A stretch of DNA of 48,002 bases from Methanobacteriota archaeon (GTDB lineage: Archaea; Thermoplasmatota; Poseidoniia; Poseidoniales; Poseidoniaceae): positions 47,316 to 95,317 of the forward strand of contig PAOW01000028.1 of assembly GCA_002710015.1 (NCBI GenBank), read 5' to 3'. Numbering within the stretch: position 1 is the first letter of the stretch; the number at the start of each line of letters is the position of its first letter. Both the position numbers and the translations under genes were made by a program. The notes below the pieces were generated by a model that made no database searches, was not told the DNA's origin, and saw only the letters and a list, made by a program, of their open reading frames with translations. Of this stretch, positions 26,946 to 46,508 are shown piece after piece.

Positions 26946-28088
26946 ATGCGAGCAGTCATTTCTGACTATGTCAGAACCTCATTTCATCGTGCACACAAAG
27001 GACACCTATCAGCAGTGAGACCTGAAAGCATGTTGGAGTGTATAATATCCGAAGTAATCAGCAGAAATGACCTAAACCTAACAGATGTGGAGGACTTAAT
27101 GGTCGGTTGCGCTTACCCAGAAGGTGTTCAAGGATTGAATATTGGTAGGATTGCAACCTATCTTCCTGGACTACCAACATCTATCCCAGGCATGACAACA
27201 AATCGTCTGTGCGGATCATCAATGCAAGTAGCACACGCTGCTGCAGGTTCTATCAAACTTGGATCAGGGGATTTATTCTTAGCAGCGGGTGTAGAAACTA
27301 TGTCCCTTGTAAAAAGGGGAGGTTGGAACCGAGACTTGCATCCAGTAATTGAAGAAAAATATCCTGATGCATATATCTCGATGGGATTAACAGCTGAAAA
27401 TTTAGCAAAAGAATACTCAATTTCTAGAGTAAGTCAAGAGGAGTTCGCATTAAATAGCCATAAAAAAGCGTTGAAAGCAAAAAGTGAGGGTCTACTTACA
27501 AAAGAAATAGTTCCAGTTAAAGCAGAAGAAATGATTATTTCAGAAGATGGTTGTATGCGAGAAACTACAATGGAAAAGATGGCAAGGCTTCCTCCTGCAT
27601 TCTTGGATAATGGAACAGTTACGGCAGCAACATCTTCTCCTTTAACAGATGGTGCGGCGTGTAACTTGATATCATCTGACAGATATGCCAGTGAGAACAG
27701 TTTGGAGTGTTTAGCAGAGATTGTATCTACTGCTGTAACAGGAGTTGATCCTCACATAATGGGTATAGGACCGGTTAAAGCATCAAAGCGGGCTTTAGAA
27801 AGAGCCGAAATTACCCTAGATGATGTTGATGTTATTGAGTTGAATGAGGCTTTTAGCGCACAGTCAATAGCTGTTATGAAAGACCTAGATTTAGAATATG
27901 ATGATTCAAGAATTAACATAGATGGCGGTGCCCTAGCAATTGGGCACCCCCTTGGTGCCAGCGGTGCAAGAATATTGGGTAAGGCTGCCTCATTATTGAA
28001 CAGGACTGGAGGAGATTACGCCCTTGCAACAATGTGTATTGGCGGAGGCATGGGTATAGCAACTGTTTTGCGGAATTTTGAATCATAA
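26946..28088 (+). CDS. Acetyl-CoA C-acyltransferase (thiolase)
   Basis: A 380-residue type II/FadA-like thiolase. The nucleophile is Cys89 in NRLCGSSMQ, and the second active-site pair is His334 in GGALAIGHPLGASGAR and Cys364 in MCIGGGMG. The ELNEAFSAQ motif is also present. It cleaves 3-ketoacyl-CoA with CoA, most likely in fatty-acid beta-oxidation, consistent with the 3-hydroxyacyl-CoA dehydrogenase at 46509-47360. Acetoacetyl-CoA formation for the mevalonate pathway is an alternative role. Start ATG 26946. Confidence 0.93.
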   Translation: MRAVISDYVRTSFHRAHKGHLSAVRPESMLECIISEVISRNDLNLTDVEDLMVGCAYPEGVQGLNIGRIATYLPGLPTSIPGMTTNRLCGSSMQVAHAAAGSIKLGSGDLFLAAGVETMSLVKRGGWNRDLHPVIEEKYPDAYISMGLTAENLAKEYSISRVSQEEFALNSHKKALKAKSEGLLTKEIVPVKAEEMIISEDGCMRETTMEKMARLPPAFLDNGTVTAATSSPLTDGAACNLISSDRYASENSLECLAEIVSTAVTGVDPHIMGIGPVKASKRALERAEITLDDVDVIELNEAFSAQSIAVMKDLDLEYDDSRINIDGGALAIGHPLGASGARILGKAASLLNRTGGDYALATMCIGGGMGIATVLRNFES

Positions 28089-28120
28089 CCTTCATACTAT
28101 ATCGCATCCCTAGAAAGAAC

Positions 28121-29122
28121 ATGGGTATCCGCAAAGGCCGGAAAGAGGCTTATGAAAATCTGAGCATAAGCGAGGAAGGAGATTGTCCAAGATGTGGAGG
28201 TGAAAGCCAGCCGTCATCCCTTCCCGGTTACTTGTCTTGCGCTAGATGTCAATATGAATGGAAAGATCCAAACCACGTCGCAGAAAGAAAAGGTCCGCCT
28301 GCAAATTACAGAAGAGATGCAGAGTTAATCGAGGAATTCAAAACAGAAATGCAAAGAGGAGACCTCAGTCATGTTTTGGGAATTGATAGAGGACTTTCTG
28401 GAGAGCAGGAACAGTCCCTGAAAAGGTTAGAAGACAAGTGGATGACTGGAATGTCTGGTCACTTCAATGCAGCAGCCGAGGAAAGAAAACCACTAATGAT
28501 ATCATTCGATGATGACGATAATTTAGTTGATACTACTATCGGCAGCATCACAATTGTTGCTAACGGTTTTGATGGTGGAGAAGAGATAAGACTTGAATAT
28601 CCAGGATTAGGTACTGAATTCTACGCATATGACGAAGCAAGCGATACAGGCTGGAGAAGAGGTCGCACCTCTGAAGATACCGCAAGATCAATCACAAACG
28701 TGATTAACAGGTTCTCAAATCTTGTATATGCTACTCAAGATAATTCAACCATACTTCTTGAGTTAAGGAATGCTGAACTCTTGGCTGAGTCCTTAGTTAT
28801 CTTCGTAGATGACCCTGGTGGAACGGACATAATTGCTGAAAAATCCGGGGTGTCAATGGATCCTAGAGAAGTAAGAATTGTTGAGGATTACAAGGTAGTT
28901 GTAGGAATTTGTTTAGCTGATGGAATTATCTCCCCATCCGAAGATCAGATGCTTTGGGCAATGCGACAGCAATTAGGAATCGATGATTTCTTACATGTAC
29001 AAATAGTTCAGCAGATATTTGGTGATCATGCTGTGAAAGAATGCACTGTTTGTGGCAGTATGGCGGACCTTTACGCAGACTATGCTGCATGGTATTGCAA
29101 ATCTTGTGAAAACTGGTGTTAG
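28121..29122 (+). CDS. Dual zinc-ribbon protein with TerB-like C-terminal helical domain
   Basis: A 333-residue protein with an N-terminal zinc ribbon (CPRCGG...LSCARCQYEW, about residues 22-46), a long polar region, a beta-rich middle (ITIVANGFDGGEEIRLEYPG; FYAYDEASDTGWRRG), a TerB-like helical stretch (VVVGICLADGIISPSEDQML, about 272-305), and a second C-terminal zinc ribbon (CTVCG...WYCKSCENWC). It is an unknown architecture to me. It sits just upstream of the MamK-like actin gene on the same strand and may act with it, though this is only contextual. Start ATG 28121. Confidence 0.7.
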   Translation: MGIRKGRKEAYENLSISEEGDCPRCGGESQPSSLPGYLSCARCQYEWKDPNHVAERKGPPANYRRDAELIEEFKTEMQRGDLSHVLGIDRGLSGEQEQSLKRLEDKWMTGMSGHFNAAAEERKPLMISFDDDDNLVDTTIGSITIVANGFDGGEEIRLEYPGLGTEFYAYDEASDTGWRRGRTSEDTARSITNVINRFSNLVYATQDNSTILLELRNAELLAESLVIFVDDPGGTDIIAEKSGVSMDPREVRIVEDYKVVVGICLADGIISPSEDQMLWAMRQQLGIDDFLHVQIVQQIFGDHAVKECTVCGSMADLYADYAAWYCKSCENWC

Positions 29123-29220
29123 TAAGCGCTTCTATAGTTATAAGTAAGCAACCGCAACTACCATACTACGTAGGTATTATTCATAAGGTGAGAACCAGTA
29201 GCGGTGAAAGGCGAGTGATT
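29123..29220 (+). promoter_or_regulatory. Promoter/leader of the actin-like gene
   Basis: A 98-bp spacer with a TATA-like TATAGTTATAAGT (about 29132-29144) and an 8-bp palindrome CTACGTAG (29166-29173) between it and the start codon. This suggests separate or regulated transcription of the actin-like gene, and a leader of some 50 nt if that TATA box is used. Confidence 0.35.
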
Positions 29221-30246
29221 ATGGCTAAAGAAGTACTTTACATTGGGATTGACTTGGGTACCTTCCGTTCGGTGATGGTATCCAGCGACAGCCACGAAGA
29301 GGAAGAACTAACTGTTATTGGAACGCCAAAGGACCCAATAGCACGTAATTTTCTCAAAAGGGATGTCTTGTTTGGAGAAGAAGCACTGAAAAATCGATTG
29401 GCATTGAATCTGTTTCGGCCATTAGAATTGGGTGTAATAAAAGACACTCCAGAAGATAGAGAATTTATTGCTCACTTCATAACACACCTAATCGGCCTGT
29501 CAGATCCTGAGGATTACGACAGAGTAGTTGCTGTAATCGGTGCTCCTGCCGAAGCAAGCCACGTTGATAAAACATCAATTTTTGATGCTGCTGCCGGTTC
29601 AGTTAACGCCGCTATGATTATCTCAGAACCTTTCGCAGTTGCATATGCACTTGATATGATTGAGCACACCCTAGTAATCGATATCGGTGCTGGAACAACT
29701 GATCTATGCCGTGTTTATGGAACTATACCGGGACCCGGCGACCAAATGCATACAGGATATGCTGGAGATTATGTAGACAATCAGATAATTCTAGAGGTCC
29801 AGAAAAAGTATAATGGTGCCCAAATCACAAAAGATATGGCAAGACGTTGGAAAGAGCAATACTCCTTTGTATCAACTTCGACACCAAAAGACCCTATTAT
29901 GGTAGATTTTTCAATTGAGGGTAAGGCAATGACACTTGACATAACTGATTGCATTCAAGAGGCTTGTGAATCTATCGTAGACCCAATCGTTGAAAATGCT
30001 AAAGAATTGATAGCAGGATCAAATCCAGAGTTCCACGATGAATTCCGTCGAAACATGGTATTAGCTGGCGGTGGTTCAGGAATTAGAGGATTAGGTGCAC
30101 TAATCGAGAGAAGGCTCTCTGACATGGGAGATGTAAACGTCCATGTTGTAGATGACCCTGTCAGACTAGGTGCCATGGGTGGATTGAGATTAGCAATGGA
30201 AGTTCCAGAAGACATGTGGAAAAACCTAACGCTTGCAAGCCGTTGA
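29221..30246 (+). CDS. MamK/MreB-like bacterial-type actin homologue
   Basis: A 341-residue actin/Hsp70-superfamily ATPase. Phosphate-1 loop: GIDLGTFRSVMV. Phosphate-2 loop: VIDIGAGTTDLCRVYGT. Adenosine motif: VLAGGGSGIRGLG. Several stretches match, from memory, the magnetosome actin MamK more than MreB: the GTIPGPGDQ segment, KEQYSFVSTSTP, the AGDYVDNQI segment, and the C-terminal EVPEDMW. It probably forms filaments for cell shape, division or positioning of a cell component. ATG 29221 gives the family N-terminus (MAKEVLYIGIDLG); the upstream in-frame extension to 29116 lies in the promoter region. No magnetosome genes are nearby. Confidence 0.88.
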   Translation: MAKEVLYIGIDLGTFRSVMVSSDSHEEEELTVIGTPKDPIARNFLKRDVLFGEEALKNRLALNLFRPLELGVIKDTPEDREFIAHFITHLIGLSDPEDYDRVVAVIGAPAEASHVDKTSIFDAAAGSVNAAMIISEPFAVAYALDMIEHTLVIDIGAGTTDLCRVYGTIPGPGDQMHTGYAGDYVDNQIILEVQKKYNGAQITKDMARRWKEQYSFVSTSTPKDPIMVDFSIEGKAMTLDITDCIQEACESIVDPIVENAKELIAGSNPEFHDEFRRNMVLAGGGSGIRGLGALIERRLSDMGDVNVHVVDDPVRLGAMGGLRLAMEVPEDMWKNLTLASR

Positions 30247-30247
30247 T

Positions 30248-30820
30248 TTATTCCTCTTCACCACTCAAAACCAATCTTGAATTGCAGTGTGGACAAATAT
30301 CTGATGGCGATAGCAACATTGGATTTATCGCCAGAACTGCTAAACAAGAAGGGCAAGCAGCGAGCATCTCGCCTTTTGCCAATTTTACACCGTCATTGTA
30401 GAGTGATTCGCCACTGTAACCCATTCTGTAAACTGGGTGAAAGTGTATTCTGATGAATCTTACAGAGGAAAATATTGCATATCCCAAAATCAGAATGAAG
30501 ATCAGAGTAGTTATGTTAAGGGAAACAAGCAATTGATACACATTTAGAACCATTAGCAAGCAAAACCCGACTGTCAGCAAGCCAATAATTAGGGGGACAA
30601 ACCAGTATGCCCATTCTGATTTACTCTTATAGGATGACCAAACAGCCAGGAAGAATACTCCTGGGATAAAAGCAAGCTCGCCAAAAAAAGTATAGAAAAA
30701 GAACGTTAACAATAGAGAATCTACTGCCAACACAAAACATGTTCGGCTGTGAAGTGCATCTATTGGGTTAGAATGTGTTGGCGTCGAGCCAGCCAAAATC
30801 ATCTCATCTGGGTCCGCCAT
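30248..30820 (-). CDS. Membrane protein with C-terminal zinc ribbon
   Basis: 190 residues with about four membrane helices in the first 120 residues (CFVLAVDSLLLTFFFYTFF; FIPGVFFLAVW; YWFVPLIIGLLTVGFCLLMV; TTLIFILILGYAIF). A cytosolic-type zinc ribbon follows (ACPSCLAVLAINP...DICPHCNSRLVL). Function unknown. It is convergent with the actin-like gene, whose stop lies 1 bp away. ATG 30820 is preferred to an in-frame TTG two codons upstream. Confidence 0.7.
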   Translation of the reverse strand: MADPDEMILAGSTPTHSNPIDALHSRTCFVLAVDSLLLTFFFYTFFGELAFIPGVFFLAVWSSYKSKSEWAYWFVPLIIGLLTVGFCLLMVLNVYQLLVSLNITTLIFILILGYAIFSSVRFIRIHFHPVYRMGYSGESLYNDGVKLAKGEMLAACPSCLAVLAINPMLLSPSDICPHCNSRLVLSGEEE

Positions 30821-30894
30821 GCTCAATGCGAGGAGGATTCAATTGTTGAATTGTCCGGCGAAGCCGTCATAGAGCAGTATTTCTTGGACGTTAC

Positions 30895-32076
30895 ATGCGT
30901 GACACCGACGTCGAGCTTCGCGGCTCGTCACTCAAAGGCAAACATGTGCTGTTGGGTGTAACTGGAGGGATTGCAGCAGTAGATACAGTTAGGCTTAGTC
31001 GTGAACTTAGAAGACATGGGGCGAATGTTTCAGTCGTTATGACACCTTCCGCTCAAAAAATCATTACTCCTCTAGCTGTAAGGTGGGCATCTCAAGGCGA
31101 AGTGATAACTGATTGGGATGGAGATTTAGCAGGTCTTAGCAATTTTGACGCAATATTGGTTGCGCCTGCAACTCGTAATCTACTCGCATCATTCGTTCAC
31201 GGAATAATGAATGGACCGCTACTAATGGCGCTTTCAGCTGCAAGAAGCCGAGGAACTCCCATCATGATGGTACCTTCAATGCACGGTGACCTATCGTCAG
31301 ATCAAATTACCAGTGACCTTGTTATTGAATGTCAAAATCTTGGTGCTAATATTCTATGGGGTAATAAAGAAGAGGGTCGCATGAAAACCCCATCTCATGA
31401 GCACATAGTTGCATTGTTAGGAAACATGGTTAACAGAAATAACACATCAGTAGTAATCACGCTCGGTGCTACACAAAGTAACATCGATGACATAAGATTC
31501 GTACAGAACACTTCATCTGGCCGAACAGGATATTCTATCGCAGATGACTTGTTTAGACATGGAATGGATGTTACATGCGTTAGTGGTGTTACAAGTGTGA
31601 ACAAACCAGATTGGATAACTCTAGATATCAAATGTCCAGATCCAAATCAAATGCTTAGTGAACTTAAAGCGCTTGCAAAGGATAAAATCGATGTCTGGAT
31701 TCATACAGCTGCTGTGCTCGACTACATTGTAAGCAAACCCGTCGAAGGAAAAATCGCATCACTACAAGGTGATTTGAGTGTTGGATTGAAAGAAGGAGCA
31801 AAGCATATTGTCGAATTAAAGGATTTGTGCAAGGGTGCAGTTAGAATCGGTTTCAAATTTGAAAGTGGAATCAAACAGAAGGACTTAGTTCACAGAGCGC
31901 ACGCTCAAATACAAACTGCAAACATGACTGCAACAATCGCCAACAGATTGGAAGATTATGGCAAAGAAGATGCTCCAAGAGGTTGGTTAGTTGATTCGCA
32001 TGGAGCACATTTCATTCTCGAAACTGAATCTGAAATGTGCAGTGCTATTCGCTCAATTATTGAAAACAATAGGTGA
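30895..32076 (+). CDS. coaBC: CoaBC: phosphopantothenoylcysteine decarboxylase / phosphopantothenate--cysteine ligase
   Basis: A 393-residue bifunctional coenzyme A biosynthesis enzyme. The N-terminal flavoprotein half (residues about 14-170) has LLGVTGGIAAVDTVRLSREL and LVAPATRNLLASFVHGI. The C-terminal ligase half (about 180-390) has VITLGATQSNIDDIRFVQNTS, followed by SGRTGYSIAD, the CoaB signature. The N-terminal half shows PSMHGD where bacterial enzymes have P-x-M-N, and lacks the bacterial A-C-G loop, which I believe is common in archaeal versions. It overlaps trmY by 4 bp. Start ATG 30895. Confidence 0.92.
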   Translation: MRDTDVELRGSSLKGKHVLLGVTGGIAAVDTVRLSRELRRHGANVSVVMTPSAQKIITPLAVRWASQGEVITDWDGDLAGLSNFDAILVAPATRNLLASFVHGIMNGPLLMALSAARSRGTPIMMVPSMHGDLSSDQITSDLVIECQNLGANILWGNKEEGRMKTPSHEHIVALLGNMVNRNNTSVVITLGATQSNIDDIRFVQNTSSGRTGYSIADDLFRHGMDVTCVSGVTSVNKPDWITLDIKCPDPNQMLSELKALAKDKIDVWIHTAAVLDYIVSKPVEGKIASLQGDLSVGLKEGAKHIVELKDLCKGAVRIGFKFESGIKQKDLVHRAHAQIQTANMTATIANRLEDYGKEDAPRGWLVDSHGAHFILETESEMCSAIRSIIENNR

Positions 32077-32672
32077 TATTTCTGCGCCGATTTGTCATTG
32101 TTGGAAGTAGAGCCATGGCAAAGGGAAAGCTACCATTGAATGATTTAGCAGGCGGTGCTGGTCGAATGGATGTACTAATCAGAGCGTTAATGTCTTCCAT
32201 ACTTACAAGTCATGGAATGAGAGAAAATGTCGAATTTACAATGATTTTACTTGGAGGCCCGGGTCCAGCAAGAAGAATTAGATTTGTTTCAAACGAATTG
32301 AAAGGAATCCACGCTGAGGAGAGAGCAGTCGCAGGCAAAATTGCGGCCGTTATTAGGGAACCAATTCCTCCCAGAGGTCACTGGATTGAAAGAAGTCCTG
32401 GAATATATGATGGAGGTGGTGATCTGGACATGACATTGGATGAGTGGAATTGCCCTATGGTAAACCTGAATGCAGAATCTAAATCTCTATACTCAGGTGT
32501 GATTCCAAACAATTTCAAGATTGATGATATTGGTTTTATCCTAGGAGACGACAGGGAGTTAGTTTGTGAGAGAGGTAATAGAAGGAGTCTCGGTTCTATG
32601 TGGCTGCAAGGGCACACATGCATTGCAATAATACACTTCCTTTTGGATGAAGGAGTCGAACTTCAACTTTGA
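32073..32672 (+). CDS. trmY: tRNA (pseudouridine(54)-N1)-methyltransferase
   Basis: TrmY is a SPOUT-class methyltransferase that converts pseudouridine 54 to m1-psi in the archaeal tRNA T-loop. The 199-residue protein matches the DUF358 pattern: RRFVIVGSRA, LNDLAGGAGRMDVLIRALMS, FTMILLGGPGPARRIRF, and the SPOUT knot region FILGDDRELV...SLGSMWLQGHTCIAIIHFLLDE. It starts with GTG 32073 overlapping the coaBC stop (GTGA), which points to translational coupling. Its 3' end overlaps convergent blh by 10 bp. Confidence 0.9.
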   Translation: MIFLRRFVIVGSRAMAKGKLPLNDLAGGAGRMDVLIRALMSSILTSHGMRENVEFTMILLGGPGPARRIRFVSNELKGIHAEERAVAGKIAAVIREPIPPRGHWIERSPGIYDGGGDLDMTLDEWNCPMVNLNAESKSLYSGVIPNNFKIDDIGFILGDDRELVCERGNRRSLGSMWLQGHTCIAIIHFLLDEGVELQL

Positions 32673-33502
32673 GCATATCTTTCCAAGTATCCGTCAACTA
32701 AAATCATATGAGGAACCGTCAAAGCCGCAAGACCGATGAATACGATTTTGATTATCACTGGTTCGAAATTGGATGTGCTAGACATTTGTAGTATGGCAAA
32801 TATCCCAATTATCCATGTTGCTATGGAAAGGTAAATTGTTAATTTTGATATTTGGAAACCTGATAGAGTATCCTTCAAAATAGGTAGCATATTTTTGACA
32901 TGTCGCAAGGAATGGAACAGACAAAAATAAATTGCAAATCCTAGAAGTGGTGGTGCGAAAAAGAATACTATGGACAACAATACTAATTCTGAAAATATTA
33001 TAATTAAGCGGCGTAATTCGTATATTATCACAACACTAAGAACCATTGCAAGTATAGTCACTACCGCCGCAGCGTCTAAAAAATGCCACACATATGTCGC
33101 ATCTCCGTCGACTAAAAATTCAAAGATCTTATTCGATTCTGACTTATGAAATTGGCTTATTCCTGCAATTACCAAGCCACCTCTAGAGATAGACTCCACT
33201 GCCATTTTGGCAAACGATGAGTCTTCCAAAGTATCTCCTCGGCCGAAATGCCAAATGCTGATTGCAAGAAATAGTATAAGAGATAAAACAGGTAGAACTT
33301 GCCAAATTAATACTATAAGGATTGAAATTGATATGTAAGATAATAAAAATTTCAAAGCATCTGAAATGTTGTTCATCCAACCAAAATGCATCGCCATCGC
33401 CCCATCCATTGCGCCGTGAGGCATTCCTACGAAGACAATAGCTAACAATGCGACAATACTTGCAGCATCGAGTGAACCAATAGCATCAAATCCGAACATC
33501 AT
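32663..33502 (-). CDS. blh: Beta-carotene 15,15'-dioxygenase, Brp/Blh family
   Basis: Blh cleaves beta-carotene into two molecules of retinal, the rhodopsin chromophore. The 279-residue protein has seven or eight membrane helices and the family's conserved histidine motifs: GMPHGAMDG near the N-terminus, SIWHFGRGD, CLFHSLRH, and VPHMILVDGY at the C-terminus; these histidines bind iron. It is the last gene of the crtB-crtY-blh minus-strand operon, overlapping crtY by 4 bp (ATGA). No rhodopsin gene is in this window. Confidence 0.93.
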   Translation of the reverse strand: MMFGFDAIGSLDAASIVALLAIVFVGMPHGAMDGAMAMHFGWMNNISDALKFLLSYISISILIVLIWQVLPVLSLILFLAISIWHFGRGDTLEDSSFAKMAVESISRGGLVIAGISQFHKSESNKIFEFLVDGDATYVWHFLDAAAVVTILAMVLSVVIIYELRRLIIIFSELVLLSIVFFFAPPLLGFAIYFCLFHSLRHVKNMLPILKDTLSGFQISKLTIYLSIATWIIGIFAILQMSSTSNFEPVIIKIVFIGLAALTVPHMILVDGYLERYAQS

Positions 33503-34599
33503 GGAACACCCTTGTTTCTTTTCCGAAATATATGCCTTGTAACTCCTTTTATGAATAGTAACTTTGGCATTGCAAATATCACTTTGAGTCGCAAAGACCA
33601 GTTTATCTCACCGCTCATAAATTTAGCAAACTGATCACCAGAAAGCGATTTTGCCATTTGAAGGAATAATTTAGGGCCCTCTTCGGGATAATTTTGTAAA
33701 ACAGTTAGCAGAACACCATCCATCCAAAGGTCTATTTTTCTGTGAGGTGTTCTGAAATAGAGATCTCCAGTATTTCTACTAAGTTCTATTGCCGCATCAA
33801 TTTGCTTTTGAATAAACACGAATGCATAGCCACTACCCGGTCTTATAGCACCAGCATTACCTCCAATTCCCGGTATGTTTGGGTCGTGAGGTTTCAAACT
33901 CCCCATAGGAATTATGCCTTGCTCCTCGTGCTTAATAGTAAATTGAGTGCAAGAGTAAATTCTGTCTAGATATTCATTTATCGATTGGTTGTAAAATTCT
34001 CCAACATTTGCATCAGTACTAAAAATTGTAGATTCAATTAGTGCATTGGTTGTTGAAAATGGAAGTAAATAGATAAAATGCAAGCCTTTTGACTGGTCGA
34101 CGCGAAAATCCATCAAAACAGCTGTTTCGCTGTCAAAGGTTGGTGTTTTTGTTTCTACCTCGATTCCATAGAAATGTTGTAACATTGCTTTACCTATTGT
34201 TCTTGGAGGACGTGAATCAAAAACTAAATCAGAGTCTTTGGGAAAATCTGAATTATCAATTATATCGACACTTAATCTCTTGGCTTCACTTCGACAATAA
34301 TTAAGCCACTCATTTCTATGAATTGCGTAATATGGATGCTCTTCAGACGACATGATCGATTGTCCGGATTCAGTAATTATAGCCCAGTTATTCCATTTTT
34401 TTCGAGATAAAGAGATTTGCCTTTCCAATCCCTTTGCTCCCCAAAAACCCCACATGTGATCTATTGGAACAGGTGCATTATCCGGCTTAACTAATTGAAT
34501 TAAGTGATTTGGAAGTTTATCTGACATTGCTGCGAGCGTTAGTGCTGCACATCCATCACCAATTATCGTGGTTTTGATGGACAATTTATCAACCCACAA
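33499..34599 (-). CDS. crtY: Lycopene beta-cyclase (CrtY type)
   Basis: CrtY cyclises both ends of lycopene to give beta-carotene. The 366-residue FAD/NAD(P)-binding protein has a nucleotide-binding N-terminus (TTIIGDGCAALTLA), LVFDSRPP, QHFYGIEV, MDFRVDQ, and FIYLLPFSTTNALIESTIFS, the last being the cyclase catalytic-region motif. GGNAGAIRPGSGYAFVFIQ is the conserved C-terminal flavin motif. TTG 34599 overlaps the crtB stop by 11 bp; a second in-frame TTG at 34587 is possible. It is co-transcribed with crtB and blh. Confidence 0.92.
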   Translation of the reverse strand: MWVDKLSIKTTIIGDGCAALTLAAMSDKLPNHLIQLVKPDNAPVPIDHMWGFWGAKGLERQISLSRKKWNNWAIITESGQSIMSSEEHPYYAIHRNEWLNYCRSEAKRLSVDIIDNSDFPKDSDLVFDSRPPRTIGKAMLQHFYGIEVETKTPTFDSETAVLMDFRVDQSKGLHFIYLLPFSTTNALIESTIFSTDANVGEFYNQSINEYLDRIYSCTQFTIKHEEQGIIPMGSLKPHDPNIPGIGGNAGAIRPGSGYAFVFIQKQIDAAIELSRNTGDLYFRTPHRKIDLWMDGVLLTVLQNYPEEGPKLFLQMAKSLSGDQFAKFMSGEINWSLRLKVIFAMPKLLFIKGVTRHIFRKRNKGVP

Positions 34600-35506
34600 A
34601 CGGAAGGCCTTCCAGTTTACTGTGAAGAGATGTATTGTGTGATTTCTTTCTAATGGAAGCGCGTGTAAGTAAGTTGAATGTTGCTTTTATTGTGCAAATT
34701 ATTTTGCTTAACTTCGATGTTGATTGTCTACCATCATACCAGTTTAGTCCTGAATTGTCGATTTGTACACCGATTTGTCGATAAACCTTAGCTGCAACTG
34801 AAATTGATAAATGCGCTCTAAATGGAAGGTATGCTAATCCATGATGGCCGCTTCTATAGAATATCTCTGCCATATCTAATAATCGTTTTATTCCATCTTG
34901 TATGAGAATAGACTCATCAGAATTAGGATTATTTGAGGCTTCAACTATTTCCTCGGGACTCATATTGTTTACCCAGTCACCTGGTATGTATCTTCGACCC
35001 ATCTGCGCATCTTCTAAAACATCTCTAGCTATGTTGGTAAGTTGCATTGCGATTCCCAAATCAATTGCATGCTTTTTCGCTGCGAAATTATTGCATTTCA
35101 GCACACTGCACATCATCAACCCAACGGTTCCTGCCACTTTGTATGCATACCTTAGCAAATCCTGTTCGCTGCTAATTAATACAGGAGTCCTTTGATCATC
35201 GAGCAGACCATCAATTAAAGCAAGCACAACCTCACAATCCAAGTCATAATCTTCGAACAGGGGTGAAAAGTTCTCAAGAACCGGATCTGCTTTGAAATTA
35301 CCTTTGCTTAATTCGTTGTAAATTACCTGCAGTCTTTCAGGGCCGTTTATGATATCGCCATCTGCCATATCATCTAATAATCTGCAAAATGAATACAGTC
35401 TGGCAGCATCATACCCCATCCTTGAACCAAGAAATCTCTTGGCCCAAAAAAAACTCTCTCCATTAGCAGCCAAAACTTGTTCTGGAGTGAGATTTTCATT
35501 TGACAT
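34589..35506 (-). CDS. crtB: Phytoene synthase
   Basis: CrtB condenses two GGPP molecules head-to-head to phytoene. The 305-residue protein has the two aspartate-rich sites of squalene/phytoene synthases: RLLDDMAD (about residues 42-49) and LTNIARDVLEDAQMGRRYIP (about 155-175). Length and order are typical. It heads the crtB-crtY-blh operon and is divergent from crtI. Its GGPP would come from the fused enzyme at 23207-24937. Start ATG 35506. Confidence 0.95.
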   Translation of the reverse strand: MSNENLTPEQVLAANGESFFWAKRFLGSRMGYDAARLYSFCRLLDDMADGDIINGPERLQVIYNELSKGNFKADPVLENFSPLFEDYDLDCEVVLALIDGLLDDQRTPVLISSEQDLLRYAYKVAGTVGLMMCSVLKCNNFAAKKHAIDLGIAMQLTNIARDVLEDAQMGRRYIPGDWVNNMSPEEIVEASNNPNSDESILIQDGIKRLLDMAEIFYRSGHHGLAYLPFRAHLSISVAAKVYRQIGVQIDNSGLNWYDGRQSTSKLSKIICTIKATFNLLTRASIRKKSHNTSLHSKLEGLPFVG

Positions 35507-35624
35507 TGTCTAGCCCTGATAAAATAGCAATGTAATGTTTGTTATAAGTAATTGTTTCAAATCAGCGTTTTTGAGGGTCTTAGATTCGATGCAAATGTTA
35601 TCATGGTAGGACTTTTTCGCTGTC
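35507..35624. promoter_or_regulatory. Divergent crtB / crtI promoter region
   Basis: A 118-bp spacer controlling both arms of the carotenoid cluster. ACTTATAAC on the minus strand (about 35536-35545) lies about 30-35 bp before the crtB ATG and reads GTTATAAGT on the plus strand, so it is nearly symmetric. A second TATA-like ATGTTATCATGG (about 35597-35608) lies about 25 bp before the crtI ATG. Positions suggest short or absent leaders on both transcripts. Confidence 0.45.
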
Positions 35625-37136
35625 ATGAAACATATGTCCAGTAATGATAGAAAAGCGGCGGTTATTGGTAGTGGATTTGGTGGAATCGGTGCTGCGATAA
35701 GATTGCAAAGTGCTGGCATTAAGACTACAATTTACGAAGCCAGAGACCTCCCTGGAGGGAGAGCATATGTTTACCATGATGACGGGTATACCTTCGATGC
35801 AGGTCCAACGGTTGTTACTGCACCGCACACGCTTACTGAATTGTTTGAGCTTTCAGGAAGAAAATTAGAGGATTATATAGAATTGAATGAAGTATCGCCA
35901 ATGTATCGCTTAATATGGAGTGATGGAGACAGATTCGACTATGTTAGAGACGAGGAAACTATGGTCAAACAAATATCAGAAAGAAGTGAAAAGGATGCAA
36001 TAGGCTATCAGAAGTTTTTCAATTATGTTGAAAAGGTCTTTGAAAAAGGCTACACAGAATTAGCCGATAGACCATTCCTCAAATTTTCTGATATGTTGGC
36101 TGTTTCTCCCTCGTTGATAAAATTGAGAGCTGATAGATCAGTATATTCCACGGTATCTAAATACGTTAAGGATGAACATCTGAGGCAAGCATTGAGTTTT
36201 CATTCCCTTTTGGTCGGTGGTAATCCTTTCCAAACTTCGTCAATATACACACTGATTCACTTCCTTGAGAGAGAGTGGGGTGTATTCTTTCCAAAAGGAG
36301 GAACTCATGCAATGGTTCGTAGTTTGATTAAATTATTTGAAGAATTGGGAGGAGAAATACGCCTCAATACGCCGGTGAAATCAATTTCTATCGAAGGAAA
36401 AAACACCTCAACAAAGCATTTAGTTACTGACAATAATGGCAAGACTGAAGAATTTGACATAGTTGTATCTAACGCAGACATACACCATACTTACAACTCA
36501 ATATACGGTGGAGTAAAGTCAGCCAAAAAAAGAGCAAAAAAATTAGAAAAAATGGATTGGTCAATGTCATTATTTGTTCTATATTTTGGAACAGATAAGG
36601 AATACAAGGATGTCGCACATCACACCATATTGTTCGGTCCCAGATACAAGGGATTGCTCGATGAGATTTTCAAAGGTAGTAAAATTCCAGATGATTTCAG
36701 CCTCTACCTACACGTGCCAACTGTAACAGACCCGACACTAGCACCAGAAGGGTGCAGTTCAGCATATGTTCTTGCGCCCGTACCTCACCTAGGAAGAGCG
36801 AATGTGGACTGGGATGAAATCGCAGAAGAATATGGTGACAAAATCATTAAAGCTTTGGAAGTAGAGATGCCTGATTTAAGTAAGCATATAGTTACAAGAA
36901 GACACATCACTCCTAAGACATTTGAAAATGAACTGGTAGCTTTCAACGGTTCAGCATTCTCAGTAGCTCCAAAGTTGACTCAAAGTGCATATTTTAGACC
37001 ACCAAATAAAGATCCGTCGATTCCCGGTCTCTATGTCGTTGGAGCAGGAACACACCCTGGAGCAGGTCTACCCGGTGTTCTAAATTCTGCTAAGGCAACT
37101 GTAAGGTTGATTTTAGAGGACTACCAAATCAATTAG
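35625..37136 (+). CDS. crtI: Phytoene desaturase (CrtI type)
   Basis: CrtI introduces four double bonds into phytoene to give lycopene. The 503-residue FAD-dependent enzyme has the N-terminal dinucleotide-binding motif AVIGSGFGGIGAA, the YEARDLPGGRAYVY follow-on, and FDAGPTVVT. It ends with the CrtI C-terminal signature GLYVVGAGTHPGAGLPGVLNSAK. ATG 35625 or ATG 35634 may be the start. It is transcribed away from crtB and ends six bases before convergent surE. Confidence 0.95.
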   Translation: MKHMSSNDRKAAVIGSGFGGIGAAIRLQSAGIKTTIYEARDLPGGRAYVYHDDGYTFDAGPTVVTAPHTLTELFELSGRKLEDYIELNEVSPMYRLIWSDGDRFDYVRDEETMVKQISERSEKDAIGYQKFFNYVEKVFEKGYTELADRPFLKFSDMLAVSPSLIKLRADRSVYSTVSKYVKDEHLRQALSFHSLLVGGNPFQTSSIYTLIHFLEREWGVFFPKGGTHAMVRSLIKLFEELGGEIRLNTPVKSISIEGKNTSTKHLVTDNNGKTEEFDIVVSNADIHHTYNSIYGGVKSAKKRAKKLEKMDWSMSLFVLYFGTDKEYKDVAHHTILFGPRYKGLLDEIFKGSKIPDDFSLYLHVPTVTDPTLAPEGCSSAYVLAPVPHLGRANVDWDEIAEEYGDKIIKALEVEMPDLSKHIVTRRHITPKTFENELVAFNGSAFSVAPKLTQSAYFRPPNKDPSIPGLYVVGAGTHPGAGLPGVLNSAKATVRLILEDYQIN

Positions 37137-42582: not shown

Positions 42583-45500
42583 TTACTCATCCCATACTCT
42601 GAAACCATCTGCATCCGAATACCAATGTCTTCCATCATTATCAAGATACCAGTTAACTCCATTTTCATCATTAGGAAGCCATTCACCCTCAGGTAGCTCT
42701 TCCCAGGAAGAGACAAAGTCTGTTCTTATTTGTGACTGAGTTTCCTTCAAAACATCATCTGCCTGATCAATAATCGATTGTTGTTTTTTGGAGCTCTTAA
42801 CAACTTTTGATTTTCTATGTTTTCCTTTTGGCTTCTTTTTGAGAATGACTGCTATAGCTCCGAATAGTATGAAGATTACACCAGTGGCTGCAATTACTAA
42901 AATCAATACCATGTTAGAATCATCATCACTATCCCCTTGACTGGAGGATTTTTGCGCTTCATCCTCAACAATAAGTTGTGTCAGGCAACCTTGATACTGT
43001 GAATAAATGAATTCAGAGTATTGATTCGGACATCTATCAGGCTCAGTGGCCCCCAAGACAAAGCTTCCAATTTGCCTAGTTGAATTCCATTCAGGATTAT
43101 CCCAATTATCACCAAAGCCATCGCCATCCGTGTCATTCCATTGGGTGTTATCTCCATCATTGAAATCGTGAGAGACAGACCAGCCGTCATTGTCTAAATC
43201 AACGCAGCCAACCAAGTCATAAATTGAAGAACCTTTTTGGAAGGGACAATCATCACCTTGAAGTCCGTCTGAGTTATCTCCATAACCATCTCCATCGGTG
43301 TCCGATACTTGGTCTGGATTTTTATCATCCCAATCATTATCCAAGGTAACTAGGTCTCCGTCTTCGTCTATTTCAGAAGGAGCGCATCCCAAATACGGGT
43401 TGAGTTCCGTAGAATTCTCATCTAAATAAGTAGCTGTAAGGACAAGTGAGGTTTGAGTAATTGGTGTATTTATGCACTGATCGATATCATCAGTAAAAGT
43501 ATCATAGTCTGTATCTCGCTCGGAAGGACCGCAACCATTCTCATCAACCATAGCTAACTCCTCAGTTGAGGTTTCTGGACACCAATCGTAGGATCCCATT
43601 GCTGCGTCGTCACCAACGCCGTCACCGTCTGAATCTCTGTATTGTTCAGGATCGTATGGTAAGTCATCGATGCTATCTGCCCATCCATCGCCATCTGAGT
43701 CAATGCATCCGAAGATTCCGTTCTTGTATGATGTTCCGATTTCTTCAGGACAATCATCGCCCTCCAAACCGGATTCGTTGTCACCAAACCCATCTAAATC
43801 AGTATCAAGCCATTGTGTATTTTCATACGGGAACGCATCAATGTTGTTCCCATAATTGTCCATATCAGTATCTTGCCATTCGCTCGAGTCAACAGGGAAT
43901 GCATCGTTATCGTCAGACCAACCATCTCCATCTGAATCTAAGCATCCAATTCGATCTTGTGTTGAATTTCCAAACGAATCAATACAGTCATCGGAATTAT
44001 CTCCATATCCGTCCATATCTGTGTCATTCCACTCGTTAATATCGTCTGGGTGAGTGTCGTTACTGTTACGCCAACCATCTCCATCTGAATCAGGGCATCC
44101 CACATATTCCCACGTTGATGTCCCGAAGTCATCGATACAATCATCAATGTCATTTGTATATCCGTCATTATCATCATCCAGTTGATTTTCAGCACAGCCG
44201 AAATCATCTACTTCTTCTGAAATATCGGAATCTGGACAAAGATCTTCACCGTCCCAAATGCCATCTCCATCCTCGTCAGGAAGTAAGTGCGACATGTCTA
44301 CTCCTAATTTTGCCCATGAATAATATAGAGAAAGAGCATCTAATCCAGTAAAGCCCATCTGTTCCCATTTCAATTGACCTAGATCTGTCAACAGAAATTT
44401 CATGAAATTCAAATTCCTTGAAAGGTGCTCTGTAGATGTTGCGACTCGCATATCGGTTTGCAACGGCCATTCTCCGCTGCGAGACGCATTAAGCGATGCA
44501 TTGACCGCATACCCACCATCTGAAATTGCATCCGCAGCACCATGAGTGTAATTATCAACAAGAGGGATAACATGAATTCCATTCGCATTATCTAAAGTGT
44601 AAACTAATTCAGTAAAACCGATAGAACCTTCGCCTCCAGAGGCGTTAATACCCTGGGTTATATCTGAGCGGAATTCACCAACAATTGCTCTGTATCTTTG
44701 AGACGTTGATGTGTATAGGCTGTCGGTTTGAGCACAGTTTGCGCAAAGGACAGTTTCTTCAAGTATGCTAACATCTGTCATGTTATCCCATCTGTGCGAT
44801 AATACAATTTCAGTATCCTGACAAGAGCTATGCAAATCAATCCACTCAGGTATATTATTTCCATTGTCGTTGGGAACAATCGAGGACCAAACCAAAGCAG
44901 GCATTTCGCCCTCGGTAGTAAGTGTCGATTTTGTTTGACTAGATGTAAGCCATCTAACTTGACCCATAGATAGACCGCCAACTGCTTGTAAACATGCTTC
45001 GGTTTCTCCGCCTGCCTTGACCATCAATACTCCTGCGGTTCTTCCATATGGAATCTCAAGTATAGACTCATTTGTGTTCTTACATTCCCACAAGCCATTC
45101 ACAGAGTGATTAGCATCTTTTTCTGCATACAGTGGACTAACGCCGTTAGTGTATGAGCTCATGTAGTGTTTTGATGAACACATGTCTAAGGTAGTTGAGA
45201 CTCTATCATACTCCCAAGTCCTAGGAGTTAAGTCGCTAGAGACATAAGTAGATCTCCATGGACTTTCCATCAGTGAAGTGTAATGATCACCATGCACCCT
45301 CAAAAACCCATCAGGCACTATGTTCACAGAAAGCCAACCTCTGCGATGGGCAATGGCTAATCGTTCACCGTCAGGACTTAGAGATATCGTATCCACACCA
45401 CGGTTTTGGTTGTTGTTGCCAAATCCTGAGATAACTCCCAAGCTAGACCATGTCACAGTGTCGAATGCCGTAATTCCATTTGAACCAGAGCGGCTTGCTA

Positions 45501-46470
45501 CGATTGCAGTGCCGCCTCCATCAGAGATCTCAATCTCGTAAATATCCGGTCTACTGGATATATTGACTGTGTTAGTCAATATAGGCCTGTCAGTTGTAAG
45601 ATCATGGACAAGTATAACTCCTGCATCGCCACCTGAAAGCATGAATCTTCCATCAGGACTTATTTCCAGAGCCCTGACATACTCGGTATTGTTTTGGTTA
45701 GTCCATGCTTTAGTCCAATTACTGGTCCAGAACCCGTGTATTTGGGAAAGTGTTGAGAATATTAGCATGCTATCATCAGGAGTAGTATCTATACCTCCAA
45801 TCCATGATGATTGGAAATAGGTTGGGAATCCTGTCAACATGGTAACCATTGACCAATTTGTCGTTTCAAAAATTACTAATCCGGACGAACCATTGTGAAC
45901 GAATATGTGGTTTTGGTCATTTGACCACCCAATAGCCCAAATCCACCCTTGAATAGTACCATTACTATTATTCTTCAAATCCGAAATTAAATTACCCGTT
46001 GTTGAATCGATAACAACTGCTCCATCCCCTTTGCTAGTAACTGCTAGCATTGTGCCATCAGGAGATAACTCGATATCTCTAACATCACCGACCATAGTGT
46101 ATAGGTCGGTTATTTTGTTCCCAAGAGAGTCAAAAACAACCACTGTATCTGTTTGGCCACCTCCATAGAATACTGAACCGTTTAAAGCCCATTCAAGAGA
46201 CTCTGGTTCGCCACCAAGAGGGTCGTAATAGTCGATTGTTTCTTGGATTGAATCTCCCCAATTATGCCTAATTTCCTCTTCAAAATCTGCTAGACCGTTT
46301 CCATCAGAATCAGGGCATCCCAGCCCAACAGTTGAAGTTGCATTACCCGCAACAAATTTGCATACATCATCACTGTCTTGGACTCCGTCACCATCTGAGT
46401 CCGTTGCTTGAATGGTTGGAAGGAAAATTATCGAGAACATCAAGAGTGCAATAGCAACCGCTCGTCTCAT
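42583..46470 (-). CDS. Giant secreted membrane-anchored protein: beta-propeller plus thrombospondin type-3 repeats
   Basis: 1295 residues from ATG 46470. N-terminal signal peptide: MRR, then a hydrophobic core, ending near Q-A-T-D. A short calcium-type repeat (DSDGDGVQDSDD) follows. Next is a WD40/YVTN-like beta-propeller of about 300 residues (SPDGTMLAV, SPDGRFMLSGG, SPDGERLAIA). A cysteine-containing globular region of about 330 residues includes GGEGSIGFTELVYTL, faintly resembling phosphate-type solute-binding proteins. Then come about 14 thrombospondin type-3-like Asp-rich repeats, one membrane helix (VLILVIAATGVIFILFGAIAV), a lysine-rich stretch, and a cytoplasmic tail with a tryptophan-rich WW-like segment (NGVNWYLDNDGRHWYSD). 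It is probably a calcium-rigidified surface receptor. TTG 46497 could extend the start by nine codons. Confidence 0.88.
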   Translation of the reverse strand: MRRAVAIALLMFSIIFLPTIQATDSDGDGVQDSDDVCKFVAGNATSTVGLGCPDSDGNGLADFEEEIRHNWGDSIQETIDYYDPLGGEPESLEWALNGSVFYGGGQTDTVVVFDSLGNKITDLYTMVGDVRDIELSPDGTMLAVTSKGDGAVVIDSTTGNLISDLKNNSNGTIQGWIWAIGWSNDQNHIFVHNGSSGLVIFETTNWSMVTMLTGFPTYFQSSWIGGIDTTPDDSMLIFSTLSQIHGFWTSNWTKAWTNQNNTEYVRALEISPDGRFMLSGGDAGVILVHDLTTDRPILTNTVNISSRPDIYEIEISDGGGTAIVASRSGSNGITAFDTVTWSSLGVISGFGNNNQNRGVDTISLSPDGERLAIAHRRGWLSVNIVPDGFLRVHGDHYTSLMESPWRSTYVSSDLTPRTWEYDRVSTTLDMCSSKHYMSSYTNGVSPLYAEKDANHSVNGLWECKNTNESILEIPYGRTAGVLMVKAGGETEACLQAVGGLSMGQVRWLTSSQTKSTLTTEGEMPALVWSSIVPNDNGNNIPEWIDLHSSCQDTEIVLSHRWDNMTDVSILEETVLCANCAQTDSLYTSTSQRYRAIVGEFRSDITQGINASGGEGSIGFTELVYTLDNANGIHVIPLVDNYTHGAADAISDGGYAVNASLNASRSGEWPLQTDMRVATSTEHLSRNLNFMKFLLTDLGQLKWEQMGFTGLDALSLYYSWAKLGVDMSHLLPDEDGDGIWDGEDLCPDSDISEEVDDFGCAENQLDDDNDGYTNDIDDCIDDFGTSTWEYVGCPDSDGDGWRNSNDTHPDDINEWNDTDMDGYGDNSDDCIDSFGNSTQDRIGCLDSDGDGWSDDNDAFPVDSSEWQDTDMDNYGNNIDAFPYENTQWLDTDLDGFGDNESGLEGDDCPEEIGTSYKNGIFGCIDSDGDGWADSIDDLPYDPEQYRDSDGDGVGDDAAMGSYDWCPETSTEELAMVDENGCGPSERDTDYDTFTDDIDQCINTPITQTSLVLTATYLDENSTELNPYLGCAPSEIDEDGDLVTLDNDWDDKNPDQVSDTDGDGYGDNSDGLQGDDCPFQKGSSIYDLVGCVDLDNDGWSVSHDFNDGDNTQWNDTDGDGFGDNWDNPEWNSTRQIGSFVLGATEPDRCPNQYSEFIYSQYQGCLTQLIVEDEAQKSSSQGDSDDDSNMVLILVIAATGVIFILFGAIAVILKKKPKGKHRKSKVVKSSKKQQSIIDQADDVLKETQSQIRTDFVSSWEELPEGEWLPNDENGVNWYLDNDGRHWYSDADGFRVWDE
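43079..44284 (-). repeat. Array of about 14 Asp-rich thrombospondin type-3-like repeats
   Basis: This coding repeat lies within the large surface protein. Units of the D-x-D-x-D-G-x-x-D type (for example DSDGDGWRN, DTDMDGYGD, DTDGDGFGD) recur about every 20-35 residues with cysteines between several of them. They are calcium-binding rods, not DNA-level mobile repeats. The DNA shows many GTCA/ATCTCCATC-like recurrences as a result. Confidence 0.85.
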
Positions 46471-46508
46471 GATTTGGGATATTCTTTCCCATATCAAATG
46501 TTACTGTT

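Follow-up and report, generated by a model that had tools for sequence, protein, structure and literature searches.

An actin of the MamK clade and its conserved gene neighbours in Poseidoniales archaea

Actin A, encoded by a marine archaeon, raises the question of whether it is a true relative of the magnetosome filament protein MamK and of what such a protein would do in a host in which no magnetosome genes were found. The host belongs to Candidatus Poseidoniales within Thermoplasmatota, an order with two families that were searched as f1, presumably Poseidoniaceae, and f2, presumably Thalassarchaeaceae. Poseidoniales (Marine Group II) are among the most abundant planktonic archaea. The analysis was done on the window, which is the whole 48,002-nucleotide stretch of DNA, and on its source assembly, which is 1.7 Mb long and 82% complete. 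A literature search that covered mostly titles and abstracts, the latter by their openings, found no actin cytoskeleton of Poseidoniales or Marine Group II, and a passage of each of PMC7203096 and PMC9834061 makes no mention of the actin A protein. The results extend an earlier sequence-only reading by a second paralogue, a partner protein encoded directly upstream of actin A, and the absence of the resulting modules as units from relatives.

Family, fold and nucleotide site of actin A

The open reading frame of actin A spans 29116-30246 (+), and the natural ATG start is located at 29221, after GGCGAGTGATT. Profile searches with NCBIfam models gave 355 bits for MamK (E 3e-106), 212 for BeeR, 91 for MreB and 61 for salactin. 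The MamK score lies below the curated cut-off of 400 bits for this model (NF040964), and the BeeR cut-off of 530 bits and the MreB cut-offs (90.8 of 293 and 79.8 of 365.75 bits) were not reached either. Among the Pfam models, MreB_Mbl scored 91 bits, Salactin 54 and Actin 30; the MreB_Mbl score exceeds a cut-off of 27 bits that is broader than the NCBIfam MreB cut-offs. A phmmer search against the PDB found MamK 5ljw as the best match (E 3.8e-74), followed by BeeR 8r2n (4.9e-43) and MreB 1jce (2.8e-14). The sequence-only reading had called for a structure prediction, and the AlphaFold2 model built from 20 sequences (pLDDT 90, pTM 0.87) has the MamK chains 5ljw and 5ljv as its top Foldseek matches (E ~4e-38, 38–39% identity), with TM-scores of up to 0.89 by query length. 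Hydropathy analysis revealed no transmembrane stretch in actin A.

Across 20 aligned A and B proteins the nucleotide-site motifs vary little or not at all, and the alignments show that the MamK nucleotide-site residues, including the catalytic Glu and Asp, are present in actin A. Glu136 aligns with the catalytic Glu of MamK, presumably E143, and the MamK catalytic residues are taken here to be E143 and D161 in both numbering and role. The actin phosphate and adenosine motifs reported in the sequence-only reading are thus borne out as DLGT, DIGAGTTD and GGGS, and the stretches it had likened to MamK are all present and align with their MamK counterparts (GTIPGPGDQ with GTVPGPEDQ, KEQYSFVSTSTP with KEQFSFVGTPTE, AGDYVDNQI with AGNYVDERL, and EVPEDMW with ELPPQYW). 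The coordinates of these features and of the partner protein are collected in Table 1.

Table 1. Features of actin A and its partner in the window
Feature	Position	Strand	Basis
Partner of actin A, soluble 333-aa protein	28121..29122	+	Directly upstream in 11/11 A loci
Partner N-terminal zinc ribbon, C22, C25, C40, C43	28184..28249	+	Kept in 10/11 rows, absent from L049
Partner TerB-like helical stretch, residues 251-300	28871..29020	+	Pfam TerB below cut-off and hhalign
Partner C-terminal zinc ribbon, C308, C311, C326, C329	29042..29107	+	Four Cys invariant, 11/11 rows
Actin A, MamK-clade actin-like ATPase, 341 aa (predicted)	29221..30246	+	HMM, PDB match, AF2 model, tree
Phosphate-1 motif DLGT, residues 11-14	29251..29262	+	Invariant, 20/20 rows in both of two alignments
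Glu136	29626..29628	+	Invariant in 20-row A/B and 9-row MamK/BeeR/A/B alignments; nearly so in second 20-row alignment
Phosphate-2 motif DIGAGTTD, residues 154-161	29680..29703	+	Invariant in one 20-row alignment; in the A/B alignment I155 and T160 nearly, rest invariant
Adenosine motif GGGS, residues 283-286	30067..30078	+	Invariant in 20-row A/B alignment; G284 nearly so in the other 20-row alignment

Placement of the protein was determined with a corrected tree of 56 rows that features MamK, BeeR, MreB and DnaK rows together with actin A and a paralogue, actin B. The MreB-type rows were drawn from 60 loci (L088-L147) typed by low identity, with 17 rows in the first tree, 16 in the corrected tree and 5 in an extended tree, and the long-branch row L134 was dropped after the first tree. 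In the 56-row tree the A clade (100/100) and the B clade (100/100) are sisters (90/80) that are joined to bacterial MamK (89/96) and then to BeeR (91/89), while MreB forms its own clade (98/99) and, with DnaK, lies outside the group of A, B, MamK and BeeR. Among the named relatives, those from Euryarchaeota archaeon NP116 and a Poseidonia sp. bin lie closest to actin A. The affinity to MamK over MreB or DnaK, which by the sequence-only reading a tree could have refuted, was upheld. When a row from genome G230 was added and the MreB rows were thinned, the grouping of A with B persisted (89/89) and the order among the MamK lineages dissolved. The AU test rejected neither a grouping of actin A and bacterial MamK that leaves out B (p 0.328, 56-row tree) nor a single clade of bacterial MamK (p 0.224, tree with G230). 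Membership of actin A in the MamK clade is therefore firm as judged from sequence, and its nearest MamK lineage is not.

The HMM, PDB sequence and fold searches all point to MamK (5ljv, 5ljw) as the closest family, and it shares the clade, the motifs and the named stretches with actin A. The two differ in that actin A is 39% identical to the solved MamK and has an archaeal host in which no magnetosome genes were found. By its sequence, actin A is a real and well-conserved actin of the MamK clade, and it is not MamK proper, since its score stays below the 400 bits set by NCBI and its surroundings revealed no magnetosome gene. The description of the protein as MamK-like holds in the sense of the clade, as determined by HMM, PDB search and tree, and does not extend to the MamK family as NCBI delimits it. 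BeeR is described as a tubular actin of Verrucomicrobiota and as a MamK relative in non-magnetotactic hosts (PMC11929497). It forms the next clade out from MamK, A and B, and the fold search found 30% identity between BeeR 8r2n and actin A; unlike BeeR, actin A lacks a disordered N-terminal extension of 30–50 aa, as DLGT starts at residue 11. Salactin, a haloarchaeal actin whose closest subfamily is reported as MamK (PMC10746226), is like actin A an archaeal actin; actin A passes the Pfam Salactin cut-off (53.9 vs 27.1 bits) but reaches only 61 of the 400 bits of the NCBIfam salactin cut-off.

Actin B and the neighbours of both actins

The source genome encodes a second MamK-type actin, actin B, that is 44% identical to actin A and scores 333 bits with the NCBIfam MamK model, which is also below the cut-off. 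Each actin has its own conserved neighbours. The partner of actin A lies on the same strand with a spacing of 98 bases and lacks a transmembrane stretch by hydropathy. The N-terminal zinc ribbon was matched by a Pfam zinc-ribbon model with 21.3 bits, below its cut-off of 25.4, and one of the two ribbons weakly resembles a transposase zinc ribbon. The below-cut-off Pfam TerB match has an E value of 0.016 for the partner and 0.003 for an orthologue, and hhalign aligned the TerB-like stretch with that of a 165-aa archaellum-cluster protein at E 7e-8. The latter protein is encoded near archaellins on contig C29 of the source genome (L158:14481-14975, minus strand). The AlphaFold model of the partner, with a pLDDT of 54, is too poor for interpretation.

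The B loci feature the order subtilase, actin B and coiled-coil protein in 10 of 10 cases, with an extra 127-aa ORF in L039. Both subtilases tested scored with Pfam Peptidase_S8, and by hydropathy most subtilase frames have a hydrophobic stretch at the N-terminus and a transmembrane stretch at the C-terminus. No transmembrane stretch was found by hydropathy in the coiled-coil protein.

Distribution in the order and comparison with magnetosome loci

An actin match was found in 41 of 61 genomes, the source genome included, and both A and B are present in 31 of 37 first-family genomes when the rows are read by eye and fragments are counted. With NF040964 at E 1e-20, 42 of 243 genomes of the phylum were matched, which are 41 of the order and G230; the same model also matches 4 of 14 control genomes, below the cut-off. 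All presence surveys used one set of 145 genomes of the order, 72 from f1 and 73 from f2. Family f1 carries the actins nearly throughout, while actins above the DnaK range occur in 13 of the 73 f2 genomes, among the matches listed. The PF06723 matches listed for the order comprise only A, B and frames of ~600 aa or more, and the two long frames that were read, from the actin-bearing genomes G045 and G025, both start as DnaK. The remaining frames of more than 600 aa in actin-less relatives are probably DnaK as well, which rests on these two readings from actin-bearing genomes. Another MreB-type actin in the actin-less relatives was considered and rejected, as the PF06723 matches listed there are all frames of more than 600 aa. 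G134 was scored as actin-less despite two weak PF06723 matches in the DnaK range (best E 3.3e-18), and G136 has no PF06723 match among those listed.

The neighbours follow the actins. Strong matches to the partner of actin A were found in 13 of 13 actin-bearing f2 genomes and in none of the other 60, two of which have weak TerB-like matches, and in 70 of 72 f1 genomes (all except G033 and G139). Strong matches to the coiled-coil protein were found in 12 of the 13 actin-bearing f2 genomes (three with stop codons, one in fragments), in 0 of 60 actin-less ones, and in 68 of 72 f1 genomes with fragments counted. A short coiled-coil match that covers the N-terminal part only is present in 22 of the 60 actin-less f2 genomes at E 1e-10, and the other 38 have no coiled-coil match at this threshold. 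None of 11 aligned short proteins extends past ~residue 175 of the full form, so that residues 226-300, where conservation of the full form is highest (0.82–0.93), are missing from all 11; a twelfth row of less than 300 aa, L081, is cut by the contig end. The 13 B-regions of actin-less genomes that were fetched had been picked for a short coiled-coil match, and ORF clustering found the subtilase and the actin in 0 of 13, one region (L061) being only 3.2 kb long; their flanking genes are mostly retained.

At the A locus, 10 of 13 regions from actin-less genomes keep the neighbours in the order of the window, which is isoprenoid genes, kptA, thiolase and then dfp, and lack both the partner and actin A. 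In five of the ten, the gene for a 192-aa membrane protein that precedes dfp was recognised, and in the other five it was not. Of the other three regions, L153 is rearranged, L169 has the thiolase in a different setting, and the contig of L171 ends early. Because the modules have matching neighbourhoods in f1 and f2, their loss in f2 lineages would be simpler than repeated gain. Within f2, the actin-bearing genomes exceed the actin-less ones in size (median 2.24 vs 1.68 Mb, p 1.5e-6 with kinship ignored, from rounded sizes divided by completeness), and since actin presence tracks larger genomes, the joint absence may in part reflect general genome streamlining.

The comparison with magnetosome loci was done with five bacterial MamK reference loci (L068, L069, L073, L076 and L084) and four stretches of the source genome. 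Apart from the five actins, none of the 78 ORFs in these loci matches the window, and two further ORFs have weak matches (E 2e-4 and 5e-4) in the B locus of the source genome. The nature of the reference loci as magnetosome clusters was checked for L084 and L073, two of the five: the mamK gene of L084 has MamB/MamM- and MamN-family neighbours and that of L073 has a weaker MamM-family neighbour, all below the NCBI cut-offs. A MamB model found no match across the 82%-complete assembly at E 0.001, while this model gave a below-cut-off match in 13 of 14 control genomes. The observation in the sequence-only reading that no magnetosome genes are nearby is upheld by both the ORF comparison and the MamB search. 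MamK-type actins from a planctomycete bin (L071) and another bacterial bin (L070, on a contig of 4.2 kb) pass the NCBI MamK cut-off, and ORF clustering found no gene common to their flanks and the five reference loci. The MamK-type family is therefore not magnetosome-specific.

Possible roles of the two modules

The reading preferred here, to which we give about an even chance, is that A and B form two ATP-driven filaments with dedicated adaptors, similar to the magnetoskeleton but with another cargo. It builds on the family, the predicted fold, the conservation of the nucleotide site, the synteny, the joint presence and absence, and the short coiled-coil form in some actin-less genomes. Several points count against it and have lowered the chance given: the B-regions were selected by their short match, 38 actin-less f2 genomes have no coiled-coil match at E 1e-10, half of the ten gapped A-regions also showed no 192-aa gene, some strong coiled-coil matches carry stop codons or are fragmented, and actins go with larger genomes. 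Desulfovibrio magneticus RS-1 is described as organising its magnetosomes with two actin-like proteins, MamK and Mad28, and coiled-coil Mad proteins (PMC12748827). From the resemblance of two actins with coiled-coil and soluble adaptors to the magnetoskeleton, above all to RS-1 as presented there, we infer positioning filaments. The likeness is a parallel of layout, and it differs from RS-1 in that both actins here belong to the MamK clade and no magnetosome genes were found. It differs from MamK systems in that A and B are two paralogues with conserved partners, to which no magnetosome-locus ORF was matched. A function as in MamK is plausible for actin A.

In the proposed mechanism, A and B would polymerise with ATP into cytoplasmic filaments that serve as positioning scaffolds like those of the magnetoskeleton, without magnetosomes. 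Filament A would use the zinc-ribbon/TerB-like protein encoded just upstream as its adaptor, and the adaptor of filament B would be the coiled-coil protein from the downstream gene. The C-terminal half of the latter would hold on to B, and its N-terminal half would bind a target shared with some actin-less relatives. The membrane subtilase beside B may anchor this filament at the cell surface. That the actins polymerise, bind their adaptors and position a cargo is predicted, as is the membrane topology. Chemoreceptors were rejected as cargo because PF00015 was found in 0 of 145 genomes.

Other functions have to be weighed against these positioning filaments. A and B could be cell-shape actins that replace MreB, with the subtilase and the coiled-coil protein as envelope links, and this agrees with the C-terminal transmembrane stretch of the B-locus protease and with the PF06723 matches listed for the order, which leave only A, B and long frames, two of them read as starting like DnaK. 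It is nevertheless unlikely, since 60 f2 genomes apparently do without either actin (G134 with its two DnaK-range matches among them), a transmembrane stretch is absent from actin A and the two soluble partners, and the tree sets A and B away from MreB. A role in DNA segregation, in which A would be a ParM-like motor and the zinc-ribbon partner its DNA adaptor, is very unlikely: the layout of an actin with a small soluble adaptor and the two zinc ribbons of the partner, one weakly transposase-ribbon-like, would suit it, but the neighbourhood is fixed across two families, no direct repeats were found in 27900-30900, and the NCBIfam ParM model matches actin A at only E 0.027. Only six weak matches, five of them annotated as rod shape-determining proteins, were found in 72,556 plasmid records, which also argues against segregation, and a plasmid origin was rejected on the same matches.

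The most improbable of these alternatives is that the actins place the archaellum or serve in pole positioning. The TerB-like stretch of the partner recurs in the 165-aa archaellum-cluster protein, and archaellin was found in 69 of 72 genomes of f1, the family in which nearly all genomes carry actins. In f2, however, archaellin is present in 7 of 13 actin-bearing and 16 of 60 actin-less genomes, an association that is not significant (p 0.10). The four g17 genomes have actins and are all archaellin-negative, and genomes of g14 and g21 have archaellin without actin. The archaellum as sole cargo was rejected on the f2 result.

A tentative and rather doubtful extension of the positioning-filament reading is that this two-filament cytoskeleton of the MamK clade, with its own adaptors, organises an unrecognised intracellular or envelope structure of Poseidoniales, and that the MamK family is an older positioning cytoskeleton that was recruited by magnetosomes. 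The family also raises the question of whether filaments of the MamK type served for positioning in general before magnetosomes came to use them. Should the modules form filaments, archaea would have a positioning system of the MamK type that is accessible in vitro with two actins and two partners. The actin-less relatives, with their short coiled-coil proteins, provide a deletion experiment made by nature, from which the half that would bind the actin can be predicted.

Several further loci were recorded. Actin A of G036, a single-contig genome, is split into two frames (contig 1, 1175435-1176456; L042) and was excluded from the alignments and trees. G230, a 5 Mb bin of the same phylum with 7% contamination, encodes a MamK-type actin that scores 435 bits, above the NCBI cut-off (contig 140, L162:9128-10225). 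Its neighbour genes look archaeal by eye, and its companions have a match in only 2 of 36 genomes, both of the source genome's own family; for these reasons and because of the contamination, no inference was drawn from G230. Elsewhere in the window, a carotenoid/retinal cluster at 32663-37136 encodes a beta-carotene dioxygenase, a lycopene cyclase, a phytoene synthase and an amine-oxidase-family protein that is CrtI-like by position, and the protein encoded at 42583-46497, 1304 aa in length, has WD40-propeller matches and a pair of predicted transmembrane stretches.
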